Positions 1,989 through 11,653 of a DNA stretch of 34,461 nucleotides are shown here, one piece after another. The translations under genes and the position numbers were made by a program. Source of the DNA: Bacillota bacterium (GTDB lineage: Bacteria > Bacillota > Clostridia > Lachnospirales > Bianqueaceae); the NCBI GenBank assembly GCA_017634575.1, contig JAGBND010000042.1, forward strand, positions 1 to 34,461. The letters are read 5' to 3'. Within the stretch, counting starts at the first letter, position 1. Each line of letters starts with the position of its first letter. The notes beneath the pieces were generated by a model. It had not been told where the DNA came from. It made no database searches and saw only the letters and a list, made by a program, of their open reading frames with translations.

Positions 1989-2750
1989 CTAAATCTTAAA
2001 GGCCTTTTCCACCGGGACGGCAAAAACAATTCCCTGGGCTTTGGATCTCAGTCCGTACTGCCCGTTCACCGCTTGAAGGATATCATCCAGTACATCCTCC
2101 GCCGCCAGAATGGTAAGCAGCTCCCGCTCCCTGGAGAGATTGATGCCAAACTGCTGCATCAGATCTTCTGTGCCGGCAAGGCGGCCTCTGATGACGGTTC
2201 CGCCTGTGGCGCCGGCTTTTCTGGCCACAGCCATTACCTCTTCCGTATAGCCGGCATTAACGGCAATCAGGATCAGGCTTCTCTTAACGCCGGATCCGGG
2301 GGCTTCCAGAGAAGCGCCTTTATCCCGCTGCTCCGCCGCCTGCGCGCCCTCCGAAGCTTCTGATGTTCTTTTTGTTTTTTCTTTGGATGCGTCCATGCTG
2401 AACCTCCCCGCCTGTTTTTGTAAAATCGTTGCCGCCAGCGTGCCGATCGCGTTCAGGGGAACCAGCATGATAATGCCTCTTCCCCTGCCAATGTGATCGA
2501 TGCTCCCTGCTACCTCCCGAACAAACCGTTCCGTCTGTCCCCGCAGGCCAAAGCTCAGGATCAGGTCCTTTTCACTGGTTCCAAGACCAATGATGTCCAT
2601 CATTTCCGATGTGGCCGTTCCCGTGCCAAGGGCGATGAAGTGGTTTCTAATTCCACGTTTCTTTAATTCCTCTAAAAGCAGCTGTCCTTTACCCCTGTCA
2701 GCGATGGAATAAAGCAGCATGATATCGTTTTCGTCTTTACCTGCTGGCAT
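1989..2750 (-). CDS. Tandem PII-like domain protein (partner of DUF1538 membrane protein)
   Basis: This is a 253-residue soluble protein. Residues ~10-103 and ~156-253 each resemble a PII-like (GlnB/GlnK-type ferredoxin-like) module. The two are joined by a charged, low-complexity linker (~112-155) rich in Lys, Glu, Ala and Ser. The C-terminal module has the PII-style ending GIVFAVPVEKAF, and the first has the equivalent GIIMLVPLNAIG strand. No canonical uridylylated T-loop tyrosine is evident, so classical nitrogen signalling should not be assumed. The gene begins 12 nt after the DUF1538 stop, and its AGAGGG ribosome binding site overlaps the end of that gene, so the two are coupled. Family knowledge: PII-like proteins are frequently encoded beside DUF1538 proteins. 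I infer that this one senses a ligand and gates the membrane partner. The stop is TAG. Confidence 0.72.
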   Translation of the reverse strand: MPAGKDENDIMLLYSIADRGKGQLLLEELKKRGIRNHFIALGTGTATSEMMDIIGLGTSEKDLILSFGLRGQTERFVREVAGSIDHIGRGRGIIMLVPLNAIGTLAATILQKQAGRFSMDASKEKTKRTSEASEGAQAAEQRDKGASLEAPGSGVKRSLILIAVNAGYTEEVMAVARKAGATGGTVIRGRLAGTEDLMQQFGINLSRERELLTILAAEDVLDDILQAVNGQYGLRSKAQGIVFAVPVEKAFKI

Positions 2751-2762
2751 GTTAAACCCTCT

Positions 2763-4283
2763 TTACTCGTAGTAATACAAAATACCGTCTTCGATCAGAT
2801 CCAGCTCGGCTTCCGCCTGACGCATGCGTTTTTTGCTTTGAATGCGGCTGATCAGTCCCATGCTTTGTATGGTGATCAGGGGCGTCAGCGCAACCAGCGC
2901 CACAATGCCAAAGGCATCCGTCAAAAGATTGCCGCCCAGCACCTCACAGGCTCCCATGGCAAAGGGAAGAATGAAGGTGGTGGTCATGGGTCCGCTGGCT
3001 ACGCCGCCTGCATCAAAGGCAACGCCGGTATATACTTTCGGGACAAAAAAGCTGATGGCAAGGGAAAGGGCATATCCAACGATCACAAAGGGAAGCAGCG
3101 ATACGCCGGTAAGCACCCGCAGCATGGCTGCGCCGATAGCAACCGCAACGCCGATGGACAGGCCAAATCCGATCGCCCTTCCCGAGATCGCGCCGCTGGT
3201 GACCTCCTCGACTTGTTTTTTCAGCACGTGAACCGCCGGTTCTGCGGAAACGACAAAATATCCCATCAGCATGCCTGCGGGAATAATGCTCCAGGTAGTG
3301 GTGATCTGACCGTTAGCCAGTTCTCTGCCAATCAGCGTGCCGGCGGGCATAAAACCGATATTGGCGCCGCACAGAAATAGCACCAGTCCGGCATAGGTGT
3401 AAAGAAAGCCTACGATAATACGCATGATCTGATGGCGGTGGAACCGTCTGGTGAAAAGCTGGAAGATCAGAAAAACCAGAATCAGCGGCGCCAGGGCGCC
3501 GAACACCTCCAGCATATAGTCAGGAAATGCCTGTAAAAACATCCAGAAGGCCTGCCGGGTATTGGCGACCTCCAGAATCGCCGTCTGTGAAGTGGAAGCT
3601 TCCGGTTTAAACAGAATGCTTAAGAGCAGAACGGAAAGAATCGGGCCGATGCTGCACAGCGCCACCAGACCGAAGCTCTGGTCCGATGTGTCGTCGCTAA
3701 CCGATCCGGCAGCCAGACCGGAGCCCAGGGCCATAATAAACGGCACAGTGATCGGACCGGTGGTTACGCCGCCGGAGTCAAAGGCGGCGGGTATAAAATC
3801 CTTGGGCGCAAAGAAGGACAGGGCGATTACAATCGCATAGAAAACGAGGAGCAGCTTGGAAAGGGCCAGATGAAACCGTATTCTCAAAAAGGCTATCAGC
3901 AGAAAAATACCGACGCCGCCTGCTACCGACCAGATCAGGATCTGGTCTTCTATAGCCGGGATCTGATTTGCCAGCACCCGAAGATCCGGCTCAGCCGTGG
4001 TGATCAGAATGCCCAGCAGTAACGCGATGGTGGCAGGAATGAACGCCCGTTTATACCGGCCCAAAAACAATCCCATCTGCTCTCCAAGAGGCGTCATGCT
4101 CATATCAGAGCCCAGCGTGAACAGTCCAATACCCGCAATCAGCATCAATGCTCCGAAAACAAAGAGCGTCAAAACGCCGGTGGACAGGGGCGTCAGGCTG
4201 ATGCTGAACAAAAGGACAATGACGGTAATGGGCAGAACCGATTGAAGGGATTCCAGCCATTTATCCCTGAGATTTCTATACAT
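2763..4283 (-). CDS. DUF1538 family membrane protein with two homologous halves
   Basis: This is a 506-residue polytopic membrane protein with about 12-14 hydrophobic segments. An internal duplication is visible at an offset of about 250 residues: ITTAEPDLRVLANQI (95-109) matches VVSAEPAVHVLKKQV (344-358); the FDSGGVTTGP motif (168-177) matches FDAGGVASGP (423-432); and SFGLVAL matches AFGIVAL. The Gly-rich GGVxxGPxT loops in both halves look like the functional re-entrant or substrate loops. DUF1538 proteins are presumed transporters, but the substrate is unknown to me. The start has an AGGAG site 6 nt upstream. The gene has its own promoter (4321-4349), back to back with the AraC regulator promoter, which suggests it is that regulator's target. 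The PII-like gene follows directly. Confidence 0.82.
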   Translation of the reverse strand: MYRNLRDKWLESLQSVLPITVIVLLFSISLTPLSTGVLTLFVFGALMLIAGIGLFTLGSDMSMTPLGEQMGLFLGRYKRAFIPATIALLLGILITTAEPDLRVLANQIPAIEDQILIWSVAGGVGIFLLIAFLRIRFHLALSKLLLVFYAIVIALSFFAPKDFIPAAFDSGGVTTGPITVPFIMALGSGLAAGSVSDDTSDQSFGLVALCSIGPILSVLLLSILFKPEASTSQTAILEVANTRQAFWMFLQAFPDYMLEVFGALAPLILVFLIFQLFTRRFHRHQIMRIIVGFLYTYAGLVLFLCGANIGFMPAGTLIGRELANGQITTTWSIIPAGMLMGYFVVSAEPAVHVLKKQVEEVTSGAISGRAIGFGLSIGVAVAIGAAMLRVLTGVSLLPFVIVGYALSLAISFFVPKVYTGVAFDAGGVASGPMTTTFILPFAMGACEVLGGNLLTDAFGIVALVALTPLITIQSMGLISRIQSKKRMRQAEAELDLIEDGILYYYE

Positions 4284-5362: not shown

Positions 5363-8300
5363 CTAAATTTCCAAAATCTTCAAGTCTTCCTCGCTGACAG
5401 CCTTCATATCTTTTTTATTCATCATATCGTAGATACAGGGAATAACAAAGAGCGTCATCAGCGTGGCATACAGCAAGCCGCCGATACAGACGATGGCGAT
5501 CGGCCGCATGAGAGACGTGCCGGGGGAACGGGTTACAGCCATGTCGATCAGGCCCAGGATAGTCGTCAGCGATGTCATCAGGATGGGACGCATTCGGGTC
5601 ACGCCTGCCTCCACGATAGCCTCCACACGCTCTTTTCCATCCAGGCGCAGCTGGTTAATATAGTCTACCAACACAATACCATTGTTAACAATAATACCGG
5701 TCAGCATGACAAAACCTACCAGAGAAACGACGCTGATTTCCAGATTAAACACCAGAAGGCCGATAAAGCCTCCCGTGAAGGCTAAAGGAATCGTAAACAT
5801 AACGATAAACGGGCTTTTCAGGGACTGGAACTGCGCTACCATGACCAGGTATACCAAAACCACGCCCAAAAGCAGCATCAGAAGCAGCTGTTCAATGGCA
5901 TTCATAATCTGCTCATTTTCGCCGGCCATCTGGCAGGTCACGCCTTCACCCAGATCCAAGGACGCAATACGGTTCTCCACTTCTCTGGAAACCAGGGAGA
6001 CATTGTAGCCATCCTCGATTTGGGCCGTCACCTGGATATAGCGGCGCTGATTCAGTCTGCGAATGGTGGAAAGAGAGTTTGTTCTCTCTATGGCAGCCAC
6101 ATCGCCCAGCCGAAGAGAAATATCCTCTCCCATCATGTTCTGGCCGGTCACTTCAAAATCGGTCAGGTCGGAAAGGGATATTTTGGCGCCGGAACGCTGC
6201 TCCAGGATAACGCTGGTGGTGGTGCCTTCCAGCTCCATGGTGGTAGCCGTGGCTTCGTCCGTTAAGGCTGAAGAAAGGCTCATGAAAATCTGCGCTACCG
6301 TAAAGCCTTTCTCCATGGCTTTATTCCGGTCAATATAGATATGGATGGATTCGACGCTTTCATCCAATCCGTCGACTACGTCCTTGGTTCCGGAGACGGA
6401 ACGCACCGTTTCGCCCACCAGGGCTGCGGCATTCTGAAGGGCATTCATATCTTCCGCATAGATTTCGGCGGTGACTCCGTTTCCCGTCAGCAGCCCCATG
6501 TAGCTGTTCATTACAGAATCGGCGGTGACTTTACAGGGAAGGTCCTTGCAAAGCGCTTCGATCTTTTTGCCTACCGCATTTCCGCTGCCGCCTTCATCCT
6601 TCAGATTGACATAACAGGTTACATCAAATTCTCCGCCGGAGGTGGACATCAACAGTCCGCTGCCGGAGGAAGACATGGAGGCGCCCATGGTGCCGATCTC
6701 GTCCAGGGTAAGGATTCGTGAAATGACCTCATCCGCCAAAGCAGACGCTTCTTCCATGGTCGCCTCTTTCGGCATCTCAATATTGACGCTGATGTTGGGA
6801 AGATCGATCTGCGGAATAAAGGTAAAGCCTCGTTCCAGACTGAAAAACAGCGTGGAAGCCAGCAAAACGATCGAAGCGATTAAAACAACGGCCTTGCGCT
6901 TTAATGTCCAGCGAAGCAGTTTCTCATAGAGCTTCAGCACCGGACCAAGAAGGAAATCCCGATGCTCCTTATGGGTCACCAGCATTTTCGAGGCCATCGC
7001 CGGCACCAGGGTGATGGACACAATCAGACTTGCCATCAGCGAAAAGGTCAGGGTCAGCGCCAGATCCGTAAACAGCTGTTTCGTTAGACCTTCCACAAAA
7101 ACAATGGGCAGGAACACACATACCGTGGTAAGGGTGGAAGCCGTAACCGCGCCCACCACCTGAGCGGCGCCGGAAACGGAAGCCTGAATAATATTCGCTC
7201 CCTTGCTCCGGAGACGGAAAATATTTTCGATGACCACAACCGAGTTATCCACCAGCATGCCCACGGCCACAGCCAGGCCCGAAAGGGAAATCATATTAAT
7301 GGTAACGCCGGAAAAGTACATCAGCACGATGGCAAAAATCAAACTCACCGGAATGGATACCAGGGTAATCAGCGTCGGCCGGATATCCTTCAGGAACAGG
7401 AACAGGATCAAAACAGCAAAAACCGCGCCAAGGCCGAGGGAACGCAGGATGGTATTCACAATCAGGTAGATATAGCTGCCCTGATCCATCAGCGTGACGA
7501 AATGAAGACCCGGATATTCCGCTTCCAGGGCCCGAAGCCTGGTCTCGATATTGCCGGTTACCTCCGCTGTCGCAAAGGTGCTCTGCTTCTCAAAGGTCAG
7601 GGAAATGCCATCCACACTGCCCAGCTTGGAATAGGATTCGGCGCTGTTGTCCGTGACCATGATCGCCGCCACATCCTTTAAATAGATGGGCAGCACGCCG
7701 TCGATATGCAGATCAAAGAGCATCAGGTTCTGGAATTCCTCGACGGTGGTCATTTCATCACCCACGGAAACCATATAGCTGACGCCGTCCTGCTTGACAT
7801 ATCCGGCAGGCATGGAGAAATTCTGCGCAGTCAAAATAGCGCTGATGGTATCCATGGTCAAAATATGATAAAGATTGGCCTGAGCCAGGGTGGATTCTCT
7901 GGTTTCTTCGATCGTCGTCAGCCCCTGCTCCACTTGGGTGAGGGCTCCGGAGACAGCGATCTGGTTGGCGGAAAGGTCCGCCGCAGCCTGCGCGATCTGC
8001 AGAAGGCCGCTGGTTTTCTGGGCGGAAAGCAGCAATGCCGCATCCTGCAGCTGCATCATGCCCGCGTCAATCTGGGAGAGGCCGTCCTGCAGCGCTTTAT
8101 TGCCTTCATCAATCTGCAGGATGTTCGCATCCATCTCGGCTAAAGACGCATCCAGGTTTTCCTCGGAAATGCCCTGGGCCTCCAGCGCCTCCCGGGCCTG
8201 CTGGATCCGGGTCTGAATATCCTGATAAGCCGCCTGGGATTCCTGGATTCTTCCTTCCAGGGTGGCGGCATCCAGGCCATAGGCAGAAAGCTGCGTCTGA

Positions 8301-9406
8301 AGCTCGGCATAGGAGGCTTCAGCCTGCTGGTAAGCCGCGCTGTTTCTGATTTCTGCAATGGCAGCTTCAATCTCTTCAGGGGTCAGATCGGCTCGTTCCT
8401 GCAGCTCCTGAATCTGGGCGGTAAAACCATCCCGAACAGCCTGAATCGTTTGCATTGTCTCCCGTAGCTGGATCATGTTTTCAATATCTGCGGATATGGC
8501 AGCGGCCTGGGTCTGAAGGGTTTCCAGGCCTGTTTTCAGGGCAGTCAGGGCATTCTTGGTGGTTTCCAGGGTTGTCCTCGCCGTCTGAAGCTGGGCAATC
8601 TGGTCCTGCAGCTGCGCCTTGGTTTCGATCAGCTCTGTCTGTTTTTCACTGATCTGCGCCTCGCCCGCCGCTGTTTGATTGGCTAAGGCGGAAGAACCCG
8701 CATTCAGCTCTTCCCTGGCGGCGTCCATCTGCTCCTGCGCATCTGTCAGCTCCTGCTTTGTACCGGCCAGCTCGCCGGCAGCTTCAGAAAACTGTTCCTC
8801 AATAACCTTGGCAATGGCTTCATTCCATAGATCGATCTTCTGCTGCGAAAGCACCACATGAACTTCCTGGGTAATGCCGCCGGAGGCCGATACCCTGGCC
8901 ACTCCGGAAATGCCTTCCAGCTTGTTCATAATGGTGTCATTCAAAAACTCGGTCAGCTCCAGGGTGGACATGTCATCCACGGAAACAGCCGCCACCTCGA
9001 TGGGAATGACCGAAGGATTGATTTTCAGCACATAAGGGGTGCCCACCATTTCATCCCAGGAGGATTCCAGAACCGCGATGTTCTGCTGGATATCGACGCC
9101 GATGGTGTCCATGTTGACATCCTCTTCAAATTCCAGCATGACAAGGCCGTAGTTTTCCTGAGAGTTTGAGGTCACCTCTTTAATATGCTCCAGGGTGGAC
9201 ATGGACTGCTCCATGGGCCGCACCACCTCCAGCTCCACCTTTTCGGGGCTGGCGCCGGGGTAGGTCGTCATGATAATAATATAAGGGAAGTCCATGTTGG
9301 GAAACAAATCCGGGGTCATGCGCAGGTAGGCCACCACGCCAAGCACCAGCACCGCAATCACTGCAACAAATATGGTTAAGGGTTTTTTTACACTAAATTT
9401 CGGCAA
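5363..9406 (-). CDS. RND-family exporter with long extracytoplasmic coiled-coil insertion
   Basis: This is a 1347-residue RND permease (HAE1/AcrB-like, longer than the usual ~1030). TM1 is at residues 10-29. The porter-like domain follows, then TM2-TM6 from about 645. The TM4 relay motif is GMLVDNSVVVIEN, so the second Asp of AcrB's DD pair is Asn here, a variant seen in many Firmicute and Bacteroidetes RNDs. The TM10 motif is VNNGIVLVDYIN. A Gln/Ala/Leu/Glu-rich heptad-like stretch at ~195-515 is inserted where AcrB leaves its PN2 subdomain for the TolC-docking domain, and probably forms a long helical hairpin. The TTG start is favoured because AAAGGGGG precedes it and the next Met (residue 30) would remove TM1. 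The gene lies 18 nt after the LTA-synthase-like gene. No adaptor or TolC homologue is nearby, as expected for a single-membrane cell. The substrate is unknown; an envelope lipid, glycolipid or drug is possible. Confidence 0.9.
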   Translation of the reverse strand: MPKFSVKKPLTIFVAVIAVLVLGVVAYLRMTPDLFPNMDFPYIIIMTTYPGASPEKVELEVVRPMEQSMSTLEHIKEVTSNSQENYGLVMLEFEEDVNMDTIGVDIQQNIAVLESSWDEMVGTPYVLKINPSVIPIEVAAVSVDDMSTLELTEFLNDTIMNKLEGISGVARVSASGGITQEVHVVLSQQKIDLWNEAIAKVIEEQFSEAAGELAGTKQELTDAQEQMDAAREELNAGSSALANQTAAGEAQISEKQTELIETKAQLQDQIAQLQTARTTLETTKNALTALKTGLETLQTQAAAISADIENMIQLRETMQTIQAVRDGFTAQIQELQERADLTPEEIEAAIAEIRNSAAYQQAEASYAELQTQLSAYGLDAATLEGRIQESQAAYQDIQTRIQQAREALEAQGISEENLDASLAEMDANILQIDEGNKALQDGLSQIDAGMMQLQDAALLLSAQKTSGLLQIAQAAADLSANQIAVSGALTQVEQGLTTIEETRESTLAQANLYHILTMDTISAILTAQNFSMPAGYVKQDGVSYMVSVGDEMTTVEEFQNLMLFDLHIDGVLPIYLKDVAAIMVTDNSAESYSKLGSVDGISLTFEKQSTFATAEVTGNIETRLRALEAEYPGLHFVTLMDQGSYIYLIVNTILRSLGLGAVFAVLILFLFLKDIRPTLITLVSIPVSLIFAIVLMYFSGVTINMISLSGLAVAVGMLVDNSVVVIENIFRLRSKGANIIQASVSGAAQVVGAVTASTLTTVCVFLPIVFVEGLTKQLFTDLALTLTFSLMASLIVSITLVPAMASKMLVTHKEHRDFLLGPVLKLYEKLLRWTLKRKAVVLIASIVLLASTLFFSLERGFTFIPQIDLPNISVNIEMPKEATMEEASALADEVISRILTLDEIGTMGASMSSSGSGLLMSTSGGEFDVTCYVNLKDEGGSGNAVGKKIEALCKDLPCKVTADSVMNSYMGLLTGNGVTAEIYAEDMNALQNAAALVGETVRSVSGTKDVVDGLDESVESIHIYIDRNKAMEKGFTVAQIFMSLSSALTDEATATTMELEGTTTSVILEQRSGAKISLSDLTDFEVTGQNMMGEDISLRLGDVAAIERTNSLSTIRRLNQRRYIQVTAQIEDGYNVSLVSREVENRIASLDLGEGVTCQMAGENEQIMNAIEQLLLMLLLGVVLVYLVMVAQFQSLKSPFIVMFTIPLAFTGGFIGLLVFNLEISVVSLVGFVMLTGIIVNNGIVLVDYINQLRLDGKERVEAIVEAGVTRMRPILMTSLTTILGLIDMAVTRSPGTSLMRPIAIVCIGGLLYATLMTLFVIPCIYDMMNKKDMKAVSEEDLKILEI

Positions 9407-9424: not shown

Positions 9425-11653
9425 TCAGCGCCGATCGTAAAGCTGCTCGTATATTAAGTCGTAAAAATCGGTTCCGATAATACCGCTGCAATAGTTCAAT
9501 TTATTGGTTACCAGCTTGCTGACATTCTCCACATATTGATCCGGCAGCGTCATATTGGGGTCCACAGGGGTAAAGGTATCGGTCATATAGATATAGGTTC
9601 CGTAATTTGTTTTCCAATCGCCGTCGATTTCAAAAACCAGGGCTTCCTGGTCAGAGAAAACATCTCTGCCGGGCAGCAGGCGCGAATCCCAGTCGCATCC
9701 GAAAAGGTTCAAAAGCGTAGGCAGAATATCCAGGCTCATGACCGGCTCATCGACGATAATCGGCGCCTGATCCTCCAGGCATCCGCTCCAGAGAATCAGC
9801 CGGCTGGAGTCGCGCTGCAGATAGTTGGTCACCTCGAAGCGGTACAGCTCGCTGAGATAGACCAGCGAGCCCAGCGGGGCGTCATCATCGAGGCCGTAGG
9901 GAAAATGGTCGCCGCAGATAACCACCACCGTATCGTCCGCTATTTCCTTCTCTTCCAGCAGCTTAATCAGCTCCGTCATGGCGTCTTCCAGCTCCAGGTT
10001 GCAGGCGATGTAGCCTTTTACGATATCCGAGTATTCCAGATTCATCTTTTCAACCCGTTCCCAGTTTTTATCCACCATGGCGTTTCGATCCCGGGTATAG
10101 AGGCTGTGGCCGGAGACAGTCATGTAATAAATATTGAAGGGCTGGTGATCCGCATAAAGGGGGAAGGTATTCACCACCGTCTCCAGATCGCTCTGGGGCC
10201 ACTGGTTGGTCACGTATTCTTCCATGCCGGTTCCGAAGCCCATGAAGCCTTCGGAATAGCCCAGCAGGTTGTGAGTGGTTTCACGGTCATAGAAATTCGC
10301 ATCATTGGCATGGATCGCCATCCCGTAATAACCATTCAGACGATAAGCCATATCCAGCCACATTTTATGGGAGGTGGCATCCGACATGGAAGCGCCGCCG
10401 GTCATGGGATGAACGCCAAAAAGCACTTCGGTTTCGCCTCCTGTGGTTCCGGCGCTGGCAGGCTGGTAAAAGTCCGTAAACTGAATGCCCTTTGTTGCCA
10501 TTCGATGCAGGGTAGGCGTCGTTTTTTCATCAATCACATAGCCGCTGAAGGCTTCCGCGCATATGAGAATCAGATTTTTGCCCTCAAACATGCCGGTATA
10601 TTCGTTCTGCTTTGATGGGGTCAGATTTTTGGCATAGGCATACATGGAAGAAAGCTGGGAACTGTAGGCATCTTTCTCCAGACTGTCAAAGTCGATGGGA
10701 AGCATGCTGTATTCAGGATCCATAAGGCTGTATTTTTTAGGGGCAGCCGCTTCGCCGGAGGCGCTCTTAGCGGAAGGATCTGTCTGGCTGTTTTCTGTCT
10801 GAGCCGCAGAAGGATCAGCGCCGGACAGTTCATTTTGCTGCGTCTTTTCCGATGTCTCAGCGCTCTGACTTTGGCTTGCTTTCTGAGTCCCATCATCCAC
10901 CTTCAGGGCATCAGAGCCCGCGTCGGCCTCGAAGGCAATCTCATTATTGTTCAAGTGCAGAAGCTCCAGCCTGACGCCCTCTAAAAGCCCGAATTGATCG
11001 ACGGCGCTTTGAAAGCTGTAGCTGGCGCTGTGCATCGCCCGCAGCCTTGGCTGAAACCGTATGCCCGCAAGCGCCACTGCAAAGCAGGTCAGAGAACAGA
11101 CGCCTATCACCAAAGACCGAAGCAGGGTTCCAGGGCGGTTTTTAAAGCATCGTGAAGCCAGCAGAAAATACAGTAAAACAGGCAGCCAAAAAAGCAAAAT
11201 ATGCACAATTCCGGAAAAGCTGAAAACCAGGGACAGGGTTTCGGACATAAAGCCTCTGAACATGCCCGCTGCGCCGTTTACGATGGTTTTCAAATTGTAC
11301 AGAACCTTAAAGGCCTTTAAAATAAAGAATTCCACAAGAAAGGGAATCGAAAGCAACAGCAGCATCAGCGCTGCGGTTATGTTCCTGACCGCATCTCGTT
11401 TGATCAGGAGCAGCGGAATCGTCAGCAGCAGTCCAAGGCCTGCGGAATAAAGCAGGATCAGCAGGACGCTGTTGATGGTGAAAACGCCACGGGAGGAAAT
11501 GTGAAACAAAAGCTCCATGTAAAGGACGCAAAGAGGAAGAAAAACGAGCTCTCCAACAAGGGCAAAGCGCATTTTCCGCTTTTCCATCCTCTCCTTTTCC
11601 GCCTGCAGACGGGCTCTGCGCTCCTGAATTCTGCGGCTTACATCATCACTCAT
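9425..11653 (-). CDS. LTA-synthase-like membrane sulfatase (phosphoglycerol transferase family)
   Basis: This is a 742-residue protein. About five N-terminal TM helices (within residues 30-200) are followed by an unusual Ser/Gln/Ala/Glu-rich low-complexity linker (~245-307), then the extracellular alkaline-phosphatase-type sulfatase domain. Key residues are visible: metal-binding Glu367 (ICAEAF), the probable catalytic Thr404 in an AGTTGGE motif equivalent to the GKT of LtaS, His516 in SGHS, and the Asp582-His583 pair in CGDHFPYG. Family members polymerise glycerol phosphate onto a glycolipid anchor, or transfer phosphoglycerol to other envelope glycans. The long linker is atypical for housekeeping LtaS, so a modifying role is possible. 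The start has an AGGT site 4 nt upstream. The gene begins 12 nt after the lipase-like gene and is followed by the RND gene, suggesting joint action at the envelope. Confidence 0.88.
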   Translation of the reverse strand: MSDDVSRRIQERRARLQAEKERMEKRKMRFALVGELVFLPLCVLYMELLFHISSRGVFTINSVLLILLYSAGLGLLLTIPLLLIKRDAVRNITAALMLLLLSIPFLVEFFILKAFKVLYNLKTIVNGAAGMFRGFMSETLSLVFSFSGIVHILLFWLPVLLYFLLASRCFKNRPGTLLRSLVIGVCSLTCFAVALAGIRFQPRLRAMHSASYSFQSAVDQFGLLEGVRLELLHLNNNEIAFEADAGSDALKVDDGTQKASQSQSAETSEKTQQNELSGADPSAAQTENSQTDPSAKSASGEAAAPKKYSLMDPEYSMLPIDFDSLEKDAYSSQLSSMYAYAKNLTPSKQNEYTGMFEGKNLILICAEAFSGYVIDEKTTPTLHRMATKGIQFTDFYQPASAGTTGGETEVLFGVHPMTGGASMSDATSHKMWLDMAYRLNGYYGMAIHANDANFYDRETTHNLLGYSEGFMGFGTGMEEYVTNQWPQSDLETVVNTFPLYADHQPFNIYYMTVSGHSLYTRDRNAMVDKNWERVEKMNLEYSDIVKGYIACNLELEDAMTELIKLLEEKEIADDTVVVICGDHFPYGLDDDAPLGSLVYLSELYRFEVTNYLQRDSSRLILWSGCLEDQAPIIVDEPVMSLDILPTLLNLFGCDWDSRLLPGRDVFSDQEALVFEIDGDWKTNYGTYIYMTDTFTPVDPNMTLPDQYVENVSKLVTNKLNYCSGIIGTDFYDLIYEQLYDRR

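Follow-up and report, generated by a model that had tools for sequence, protein, structure and literature searches.

How resistance-nodulation-division (RND) pumps use their docking domain in bacteria that lack an outer membrane is unsettled. A gene from a gut bacterium of the Bacillota (assembly GCA_017634575.1, contig JAGBND010000042.1) raises this question anew, as it encodes an HAE1-type RND exporter that carries a coiled-coil insertion of about 320 residues in its docking region. What does such an arm reveal about the way the pump is built and works? The gene was analysed within a window of 34,461 nucleotides, which is the whole stretch of DNA considered here. The results presented below indicate that, in a clade of pumps without adaptors, the insertion stands at the dock that the adaptor has vacated; HAE1 RND pumps are known, and the variant with a coiled-coil arm is new.

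A coiled-coil insertion at the adaptor-docking edge

The window protein is an HAE1 RND pump by sequence and by fold, but it is not part of a tripartite system. PF00873 (ACR_tran) matched it with 634 bits over profile positions 3-237 and 198-1019 of 1021, and a break separates the two stretches, the second of which runs from residue 516 to 1328 of the protein. No family besides PF00873, and thus no MMPL match, was found in Pfam at E-values up to 0.001. A structural model of residues 1-1200, obtained with AlphaFold2 and 46 homologues, was compared with the PDB, and the core fold matched MtrD, AcrB, AdeJ, MexY and CusA, with Foldseek E-values reaching 4.6e-44 and VIA Z-scores of 27-29 over up to about 850 residues. 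The 1347-residue protein begins at a TTG codon, which in the alignment coincides with the ATG start of its close homologues (MPKFSVKKP...).

Locating the insertion relative to AcrB provides insight into the surface that it modifies. The segment HVVLSQQKIDLWN aligned with AcrB RIWMNPNELNKFQ and LTMDTISAILTAQN with AcrB LTPVDVITAIKAQN, which therefore places the insert between AcrB Q197 and L198. This lies inside the docking subdomain DN, with its first strand on one side and its first helix on the other. In Escherichia coli, a disulfide links AcrB N191C to AcrA P57C (PMC8300762), and the PN2-DN linker of AcrB contacts the membrane-proximal domain of AcrA (PMC5404916). The insertion site is six residues past the position of N191, the residue that cross-links to AcrA, and is therefore at the adaptor-docking edge. 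Everything C-terminal of the insert aligned up to the end of the family profile. The first-pass annotation had placed the insertion where the TolC-docking domain should be; it was correct in that the insertion lies where the docking subdomain begins, whereas the domain itself is not replaced but present, and carries the insert.

The residue composition and periodicity of the insert were then considered. The 321-residue segment (residues 195-515, exactly window positions 8824-7862) is rich in Ala (18%), Gln (13%), Glu (11%) and Leu (11%), as well as Thr, and contains one Pro and no Cys or Trp. The period of its Leu, Ile, Val, Met and Phe residues peaks at 3.48, and the observed power was reached by 1 of 1000 shuffles. 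Within 78 homologous inserts, hydrophobic pairs occurred at 2.23 times expectation at lag 7 and 2.02 times at lag 14, with the remaining lags up to 15 at no more than 1.25 times. This shared periodicity of the window insert and the 78 inserts therefore demonstrates a genuine heptad coiled coil rather than a chance composition. The hydrophobic seam is narrow, with mainly one Leu-type residue per heptad and lag 7 exceeding lags 3 and 4, and Pro is scarce throughout (mean about 1% in the 78 inserts). Searches of Pfam and NCBIfam recognised no HlyD or lipoyl family in the RND protein, hence no lipoyl or barrel-sandwich domain of the kind that would mark an adaptor-RND fusion.

In the predicted structure, the insert folds into a long hairpin of antiparallel helices, with possible hinges close to its base and a small helical tip. 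The arms comprise about 142 residues up and 134 down, which leaves 44 for the tip (modelled at residues 338-382); with 0.15 nm per residue, a straight arm would span approximately 21 nm. When residues 338-382 are taken as the tip, the shafts (103 and 96 residues), the breaks and the base helices (36 and 30 residues) match in height, as an antiparallel hairpin requires. A split at a single turn, giving arms of about 152 and 175 residues, was rejected, since it leaves the breaks at unequal heights and a separate 45-residue tip fits. The same plan was observed in the AlphaFold2 model of L057, a homologue with a 218-residue insert: its breaks lie at residues 234-240 and 372-376, and its arms are shorter by 45 and 54 residues in the models, with aligned lengths of 98 and 92 residues against 142 and 134. 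Ascending and descending arm lengths co-varied across 47 sequences (Pearson 0.90, Spearman 0.72), values that depend on the alignment. Homologue occupancy was lowest around the tip, and the distal part of the insert was the most variable in both occupancy and sequence. The first-pass proposal of a coiled-coil insertion of about 320 residues is thus borne out by the profile break, the heptad periodicity, the inserts of the homologues and the hairpin of the monomer model. The coordinates are collected in Table 1.

Table 1. Window coordinates of the exporter gene, the parts of its product and the adjoining sulfatase-superfamily gene (pLDDT, predicted local distance difference test; TM, transmembrane segment).
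Feature	Position	Strand	Basis or remark
HAE1-type RND exporter gene, 1347 aa	5363..9406	minus	TTG start aligned with ATG of homologues
Residues 1-194: TM1, PN1, PN2, first strand of DN	8825..9406	minus	PF00873 match, DSSP of AlphaFold2 model
Gln189, aligned with AcrB N191	8840..8842	minus	Alignment, AcrB numbering
Insertion, residues 196-515, between AcrB Q197 and L198 positions	7862..8821	minus	Profile match, alignment
Predicted ascending base helix, residues 188-223	8738..8845	minus	AlphaFold2 model m87ad764c7c55
Predicted ascending-arm break (possible hinge), residues 224-234, mostly pLDDT < 50	8705..8737	minus	AlphaFold2; matching break in L057
Predicted ascending shaft, unbroken 103-residue helix, residues 235-337, pLDDT mostly 74-92	8396..8704	minus	AlphaFold2
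Predicted tip, residues 338-382, short helices 343-354 and 357-375	8261..8395	minus	AlphaFold2
Predicted descending shaft, residues 383-478, helices 383-410 and 415-478	7973..8260	minus	AlphaFold2
Predicted descending-arm break (possible hinge), residues 479-485, pLDDT < 50	7952..7972	minus	AlphaFold2; matching break in L057
Predicted descending base helix, residues 486-515 (modelled helix 486-509)	7862..7951	minus	AlphaFold2
C-terminal part, residues 516-1347 with stop codon: remainder of DN, chain returning to PN2/PN1, other membrane, PC and DC parts	5363..7861	minus	PF00873 198-1019, Foldseek/VIA
Sulfatase/LTA-synthase-superfamily gene (LTA, lipoteichoic acid), 18 nt upstream of pump gene	9425..11653	minus	Sulfatase domain; shared with same-genus genome only

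A clade of pumps without adaptors

A scan of the GTDB species genomes yielded at least 574 relatives; the best 80 loci came from Lachnospiraceae, Oscillospiraceae and other Clostridia. The homologue from the same genus has an insert of 312 residues in the same place, and 56-396 residues were found at the insertion site in 78 database loci. Over 87 sequences the insert lengths ranged from 12 to 472 residues, with a median of 281, and lengths of 150-400 residues were kept in several families. Ser/Glu/Ala-rich low-complexity stretches (AESSAAESS...) occur distally in the longest inserts, those of L009:1426-5871 (420 aa) and L010:1390-6033 (472 aa). Insertless HAE1 proteins and the insert-bearing clade fell on opposite sides of a fully supported branch. 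A second tree divided the clade in two: one group had inserts of 12-44 residues (one of 85), and the other had inserts of 50-472, some of them apparently shortened again. A limited search of the open-access literature returned no description of this clade, and for RND coiled coils in Firmicutes it returned mycobacterial cases only.

The proton-relay residues were compared with those of AcrB. D720, N721 and N1241 (window 7244-7249 and 5684-5686) occupy the positions of AcrB D407, D408 and K940, so that D407 alone is kept, as the TM4 Asp, and both other positions are Asn. Not every HAE1 relative keeps all three AcrB residues. The VDN...NN pattern is common to nearly all clade members, and most of the scored insertless Clostridial HAE1 pumps have it too; it therefore probably marks a sub-lineage rather than exclusion from the HAE1 family. 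Judging from these residues, such pumps seem to run on a reduced proton relay.

The flanking genes revealed a sharp difference in adaptor occurrence. An adaptor gene adjoins all 29 plain insertless Bacillota HAE1 loci (20 + 9), usually within 25 nt, against none of the 102 insert-bearing clade loci (86 + 16); 71 of the 86 had at least 1.5 kb of flank on both sides. Fisher's test of 20/20 against 0/86 gave 5e-22, for related sequences that are not independent. Pfam assigned HlyD_3 to 20 of the 50 flank proteins of insertless pumps, while no HlyD family was among the 25 Pfam families listed for 99 clade flank proteins, the commonest of which was TetR_N (29 proteins). Two weak adaptor-profile matches in the clade flanks were rejected, one being a biotin-carrier-like protein and the other a lipoprotein.

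As the first-pass annotation had stated, there is no adaptor gene nearby: the adaptor profile had no match in the whole window. The profile was sensitive enough to detect the distant MacA-type adaptor of the same genome (62 bits), the sole adaptor match there, which accompanies a MacB-type ATPase gene. The statement of the first-pass annotation that the cell has no outer membrane also agrees with our results, as neither a TolC-type protein (OEP, PF02321) nor Omp85 (PF01103) was matched in this genome, which is 78% complete. As the inserts of this adaptor-less clade vary from 12 to 472 residues, the adaptor was probably lost first, which freed the docking edge, and the arm elongated there afterwards.

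The origin of the arm was approached with a profile built from 21 adaptor proteins of insertless loci. With default filters, 30 of the inserts matched it, the highest score being 20.8 bits, and no reversed insert did; among 38 SMC coil pieces, which differ in composition from the inserts, it matched one at -3.2 bits. The insert may have originated by capture of an adaptor hairpin, and the similarity possibly reflects just a shared coiled-coil composition.

The loop could also have become permissive for repeat expansion once the adaptor was lost, and the coil could have grown almost neutrally, without a specific job. The wide span of lengths and the low-complexity stretches in two same-family members are in line with such growth. 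We judge it very unlikely, given that the matched arms, preserved heptads and scarce Pro across the 78 inserts point to selection for a hairpin, and that lengths within 150-400 residues persist across families.

Possible roles of the arm

HAE1 pumps form trimers around a central funnel, the trimer being established for AcrB, and three arms would therefore stand on the docking ring. The explanation that we favour, tentatively and just short of an even balance, is that of a solitary adaptor-less AcrB-type exporter whose predicted hairpins form a stalk guiding substrate outward through the wall zone. The pump would work as an AcrB-like trimer, and the three hairpins would take the space that adaptor hairpins hold in tripartite pumps. 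The stalk would reach across a periplasm-like zone into the wall, where it may guide or deliver the exported substrate away from the membrane, and the arm would have been added after adaptor loss at the vacated dock. MmpL5 offers a precedent, as an RND pump with a coiled coil whose deletion abolishes efflux (PMC12501195).

Several observations weigh against a stalk that guides substrate. The adaptor contrast essentially sets a single clade against all other pumps, and on the tree it amounts to little more than one loss. Clade members with inserts of 12-44 residues are likewise without adaptors, and working without an adaptor therefore does not require the arm. The seam is narrower than expected for a packed six-helix barrel, and the model has a predicted template modelling score (pTM) of 0.52, with pLDDT below 50 at the hinges.

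A narrow a/d-type seam is typical for a two-helix coil, which would suit hairpins that carry no substrate and act as a brace or anchor, fixing the pump in the wall zone, spacing it from its neighbours or, with the variable tip as the main contact, binding a polymer of the wall or a surface protein. The variable distal part and the persistence of short-insert relatives without adaptors are consistent with this role, and the breaks near the base suit a flexible tether. We nevertheless regard this main rival as unlikely, although worth serious consideration: no wall-binding domain was recognised in the insert by Pfam or NCBIfam, the site is the adaptor dock and not an arbitrary loop, and the near-equal arms with their long, high-confidence shafts suggest that reach is important.

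In its strong form, the substrate-guiding stalk would be a closed conduit, with the three hairpins zipped into a six-helix tube through which the substrate passes. Three times two helices would fit an HAE1 trimer with its central funnel, and the 196-residue insert of MmpL5 forms a hexameric barrel of about 13 nm in an AlphaFold2 trimer (PMC12501195). The insertion site differs, however, being in DN of the first loop here and in PD2 in MmpL5. The heptad analysis of the 78 inserts revealed no methionine-lined face or type II seam, and their narrow seam contrasts with that of the MmpL5 tube, which is reported to be wide. Only 9 of the 78 inserts contain Cys, where MmpL5 has a conserved disulfide at its tip, and a tube would be interrupted by the breaks close to the base. 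Such a conduit is therefore improbable in our estimate. Similarly doubtful is the proposal that this large clade of adaptor-less pumps in gut Clostridia independently evolved a wall-spanning stalk from one polypeptide, in which a six-helix tube of three built-in hairpins, rooted where the adaptor formerly docked, would replace both adaptor and channel in cells that have no outer membrane.

The genes adjoining the pump bear on a further possibility, namely that it exports lipoteichoic acid or lipid in partnership with the adjacent LTA-synthase-like enzyme, the hairpin presenting the polymer. The two genes lie 18 nt apart on the same strand and are also adjacent in the same-genus genome. Against this, tblastn detected no relative of the neighbour beside the pump loci of other genera, the neighbour scored 82.8 bits where a true LTA synthase has a cut-off of 970, and the neighbour that recurs more widely is a TetR-type regulator, as for drug or toxin pumps. 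A functional link to the LTA-synthase-like gene is not supported, and we consider a lipoteichoic-acid exporter highly improbable. Elsewhere around the pump, window positions 1989-4283 on the minus strand encode a DUF1538 membrane protein, after which comes another, small gene, and DUF1538 adjoins the pump in the same-genus genome (L136) as well.

The outward stalk that we favour, and the arm more generally, suggest a one-piece route to extending a pump away from the membrane. The arm that most of the clade carries at the vacated dock is graded in length, from 12 to 472 residues, and provides a natural series for testing how far the pump reaches, what it exports and how it does without an adaptor. 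Many common gut bacteria (Lachnospiraceae, Oscillospiraceae) have pumps of this clade, which may handle bile acids, drugs or antimicrobial compounds.

Comparison with known systems

The window pump shares with AcrB, MtrD and MdtB the PF00873 match on both sides of the insert, the fold, the docking subdomains and the TM4 Asp (D720, AcrB D407). It differs from them in the 320-residue coiled-coil insert in DN, and in lacking an adaptor and an outer-membrane channel. Adaptors such as AcrA, MacA and HlyD also place a long alpha-hairpin on the same face of the pump, and some inserts resemble them weakly at the profile level. An adaptor is a separate protein with lipoyl and barrel domains, however, and none of these is present in the insert.

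Other adaptor arrangements were encountered among related RND proteins. L215:4503-8174 and L218:3009-7013, which lie outside the clade and come from other families of the phylum, likewise have a large insertion in the DN region (about 175-244 aa) and no adaptor in the flanks examined. They were considered as a second coil-insert lineage in a phylum-level search and rejected, since their inserts stand elsewhere, later in DN in its beta-hairpin region, and are not coiled-coil-like; they perhaps represent another adaptor-less design. The insertless RND proteins L212:4322-8401, L213:3982-8352 and L217:28-3810 carry C-terminal extensions of 300-400 residues without a Pfam match, and no adaptor was found in the flanks examined. 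L214:3249-7703 (G117:C56) encodes an insertless RND protein of 1485 residues with a TolC-like OEP domain at its C-terminus (best stretch 1268-1476, E 1.7e-33). An adaptor gene adjoins it, and the protein is an apparent fusion of pump and outer-membrane channel.

SwrC (YerP) of Bacillus subtilis is, like the window pump, an RND exporter of a Gram-positive bacterium, in this case for surfactin. It is not known to have such an insert and works without a known adaptor. YerP has been placed in the NFE group (PMC8277102).

In architecture the window pump resembles the HAE2 pumps MmpL5, MmpL4 and MmpL10, which have an extracytoplasmic antiparallel coiled-coil hairpin in a periplasmic domain and no TolC. 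The insert of MmpL5 comprises 196 residues in PD2 of the second loop, and MmpL5 lacks docking domains, has MmpS as a partner and bears a disulfide at the tip, whereas the window insert occupies residues 196-515 in DN of the first loop and not PD2, and is Cys-poor. The loose likeness to the mycobacterial MmpL coil noted at the outset is upheld with MmpL5, at a different site, and the resemblance is at most one of convergence. The clade of the window pump adds to MmpL5 a second and independent example of coiled-coil extension in an RND pump.

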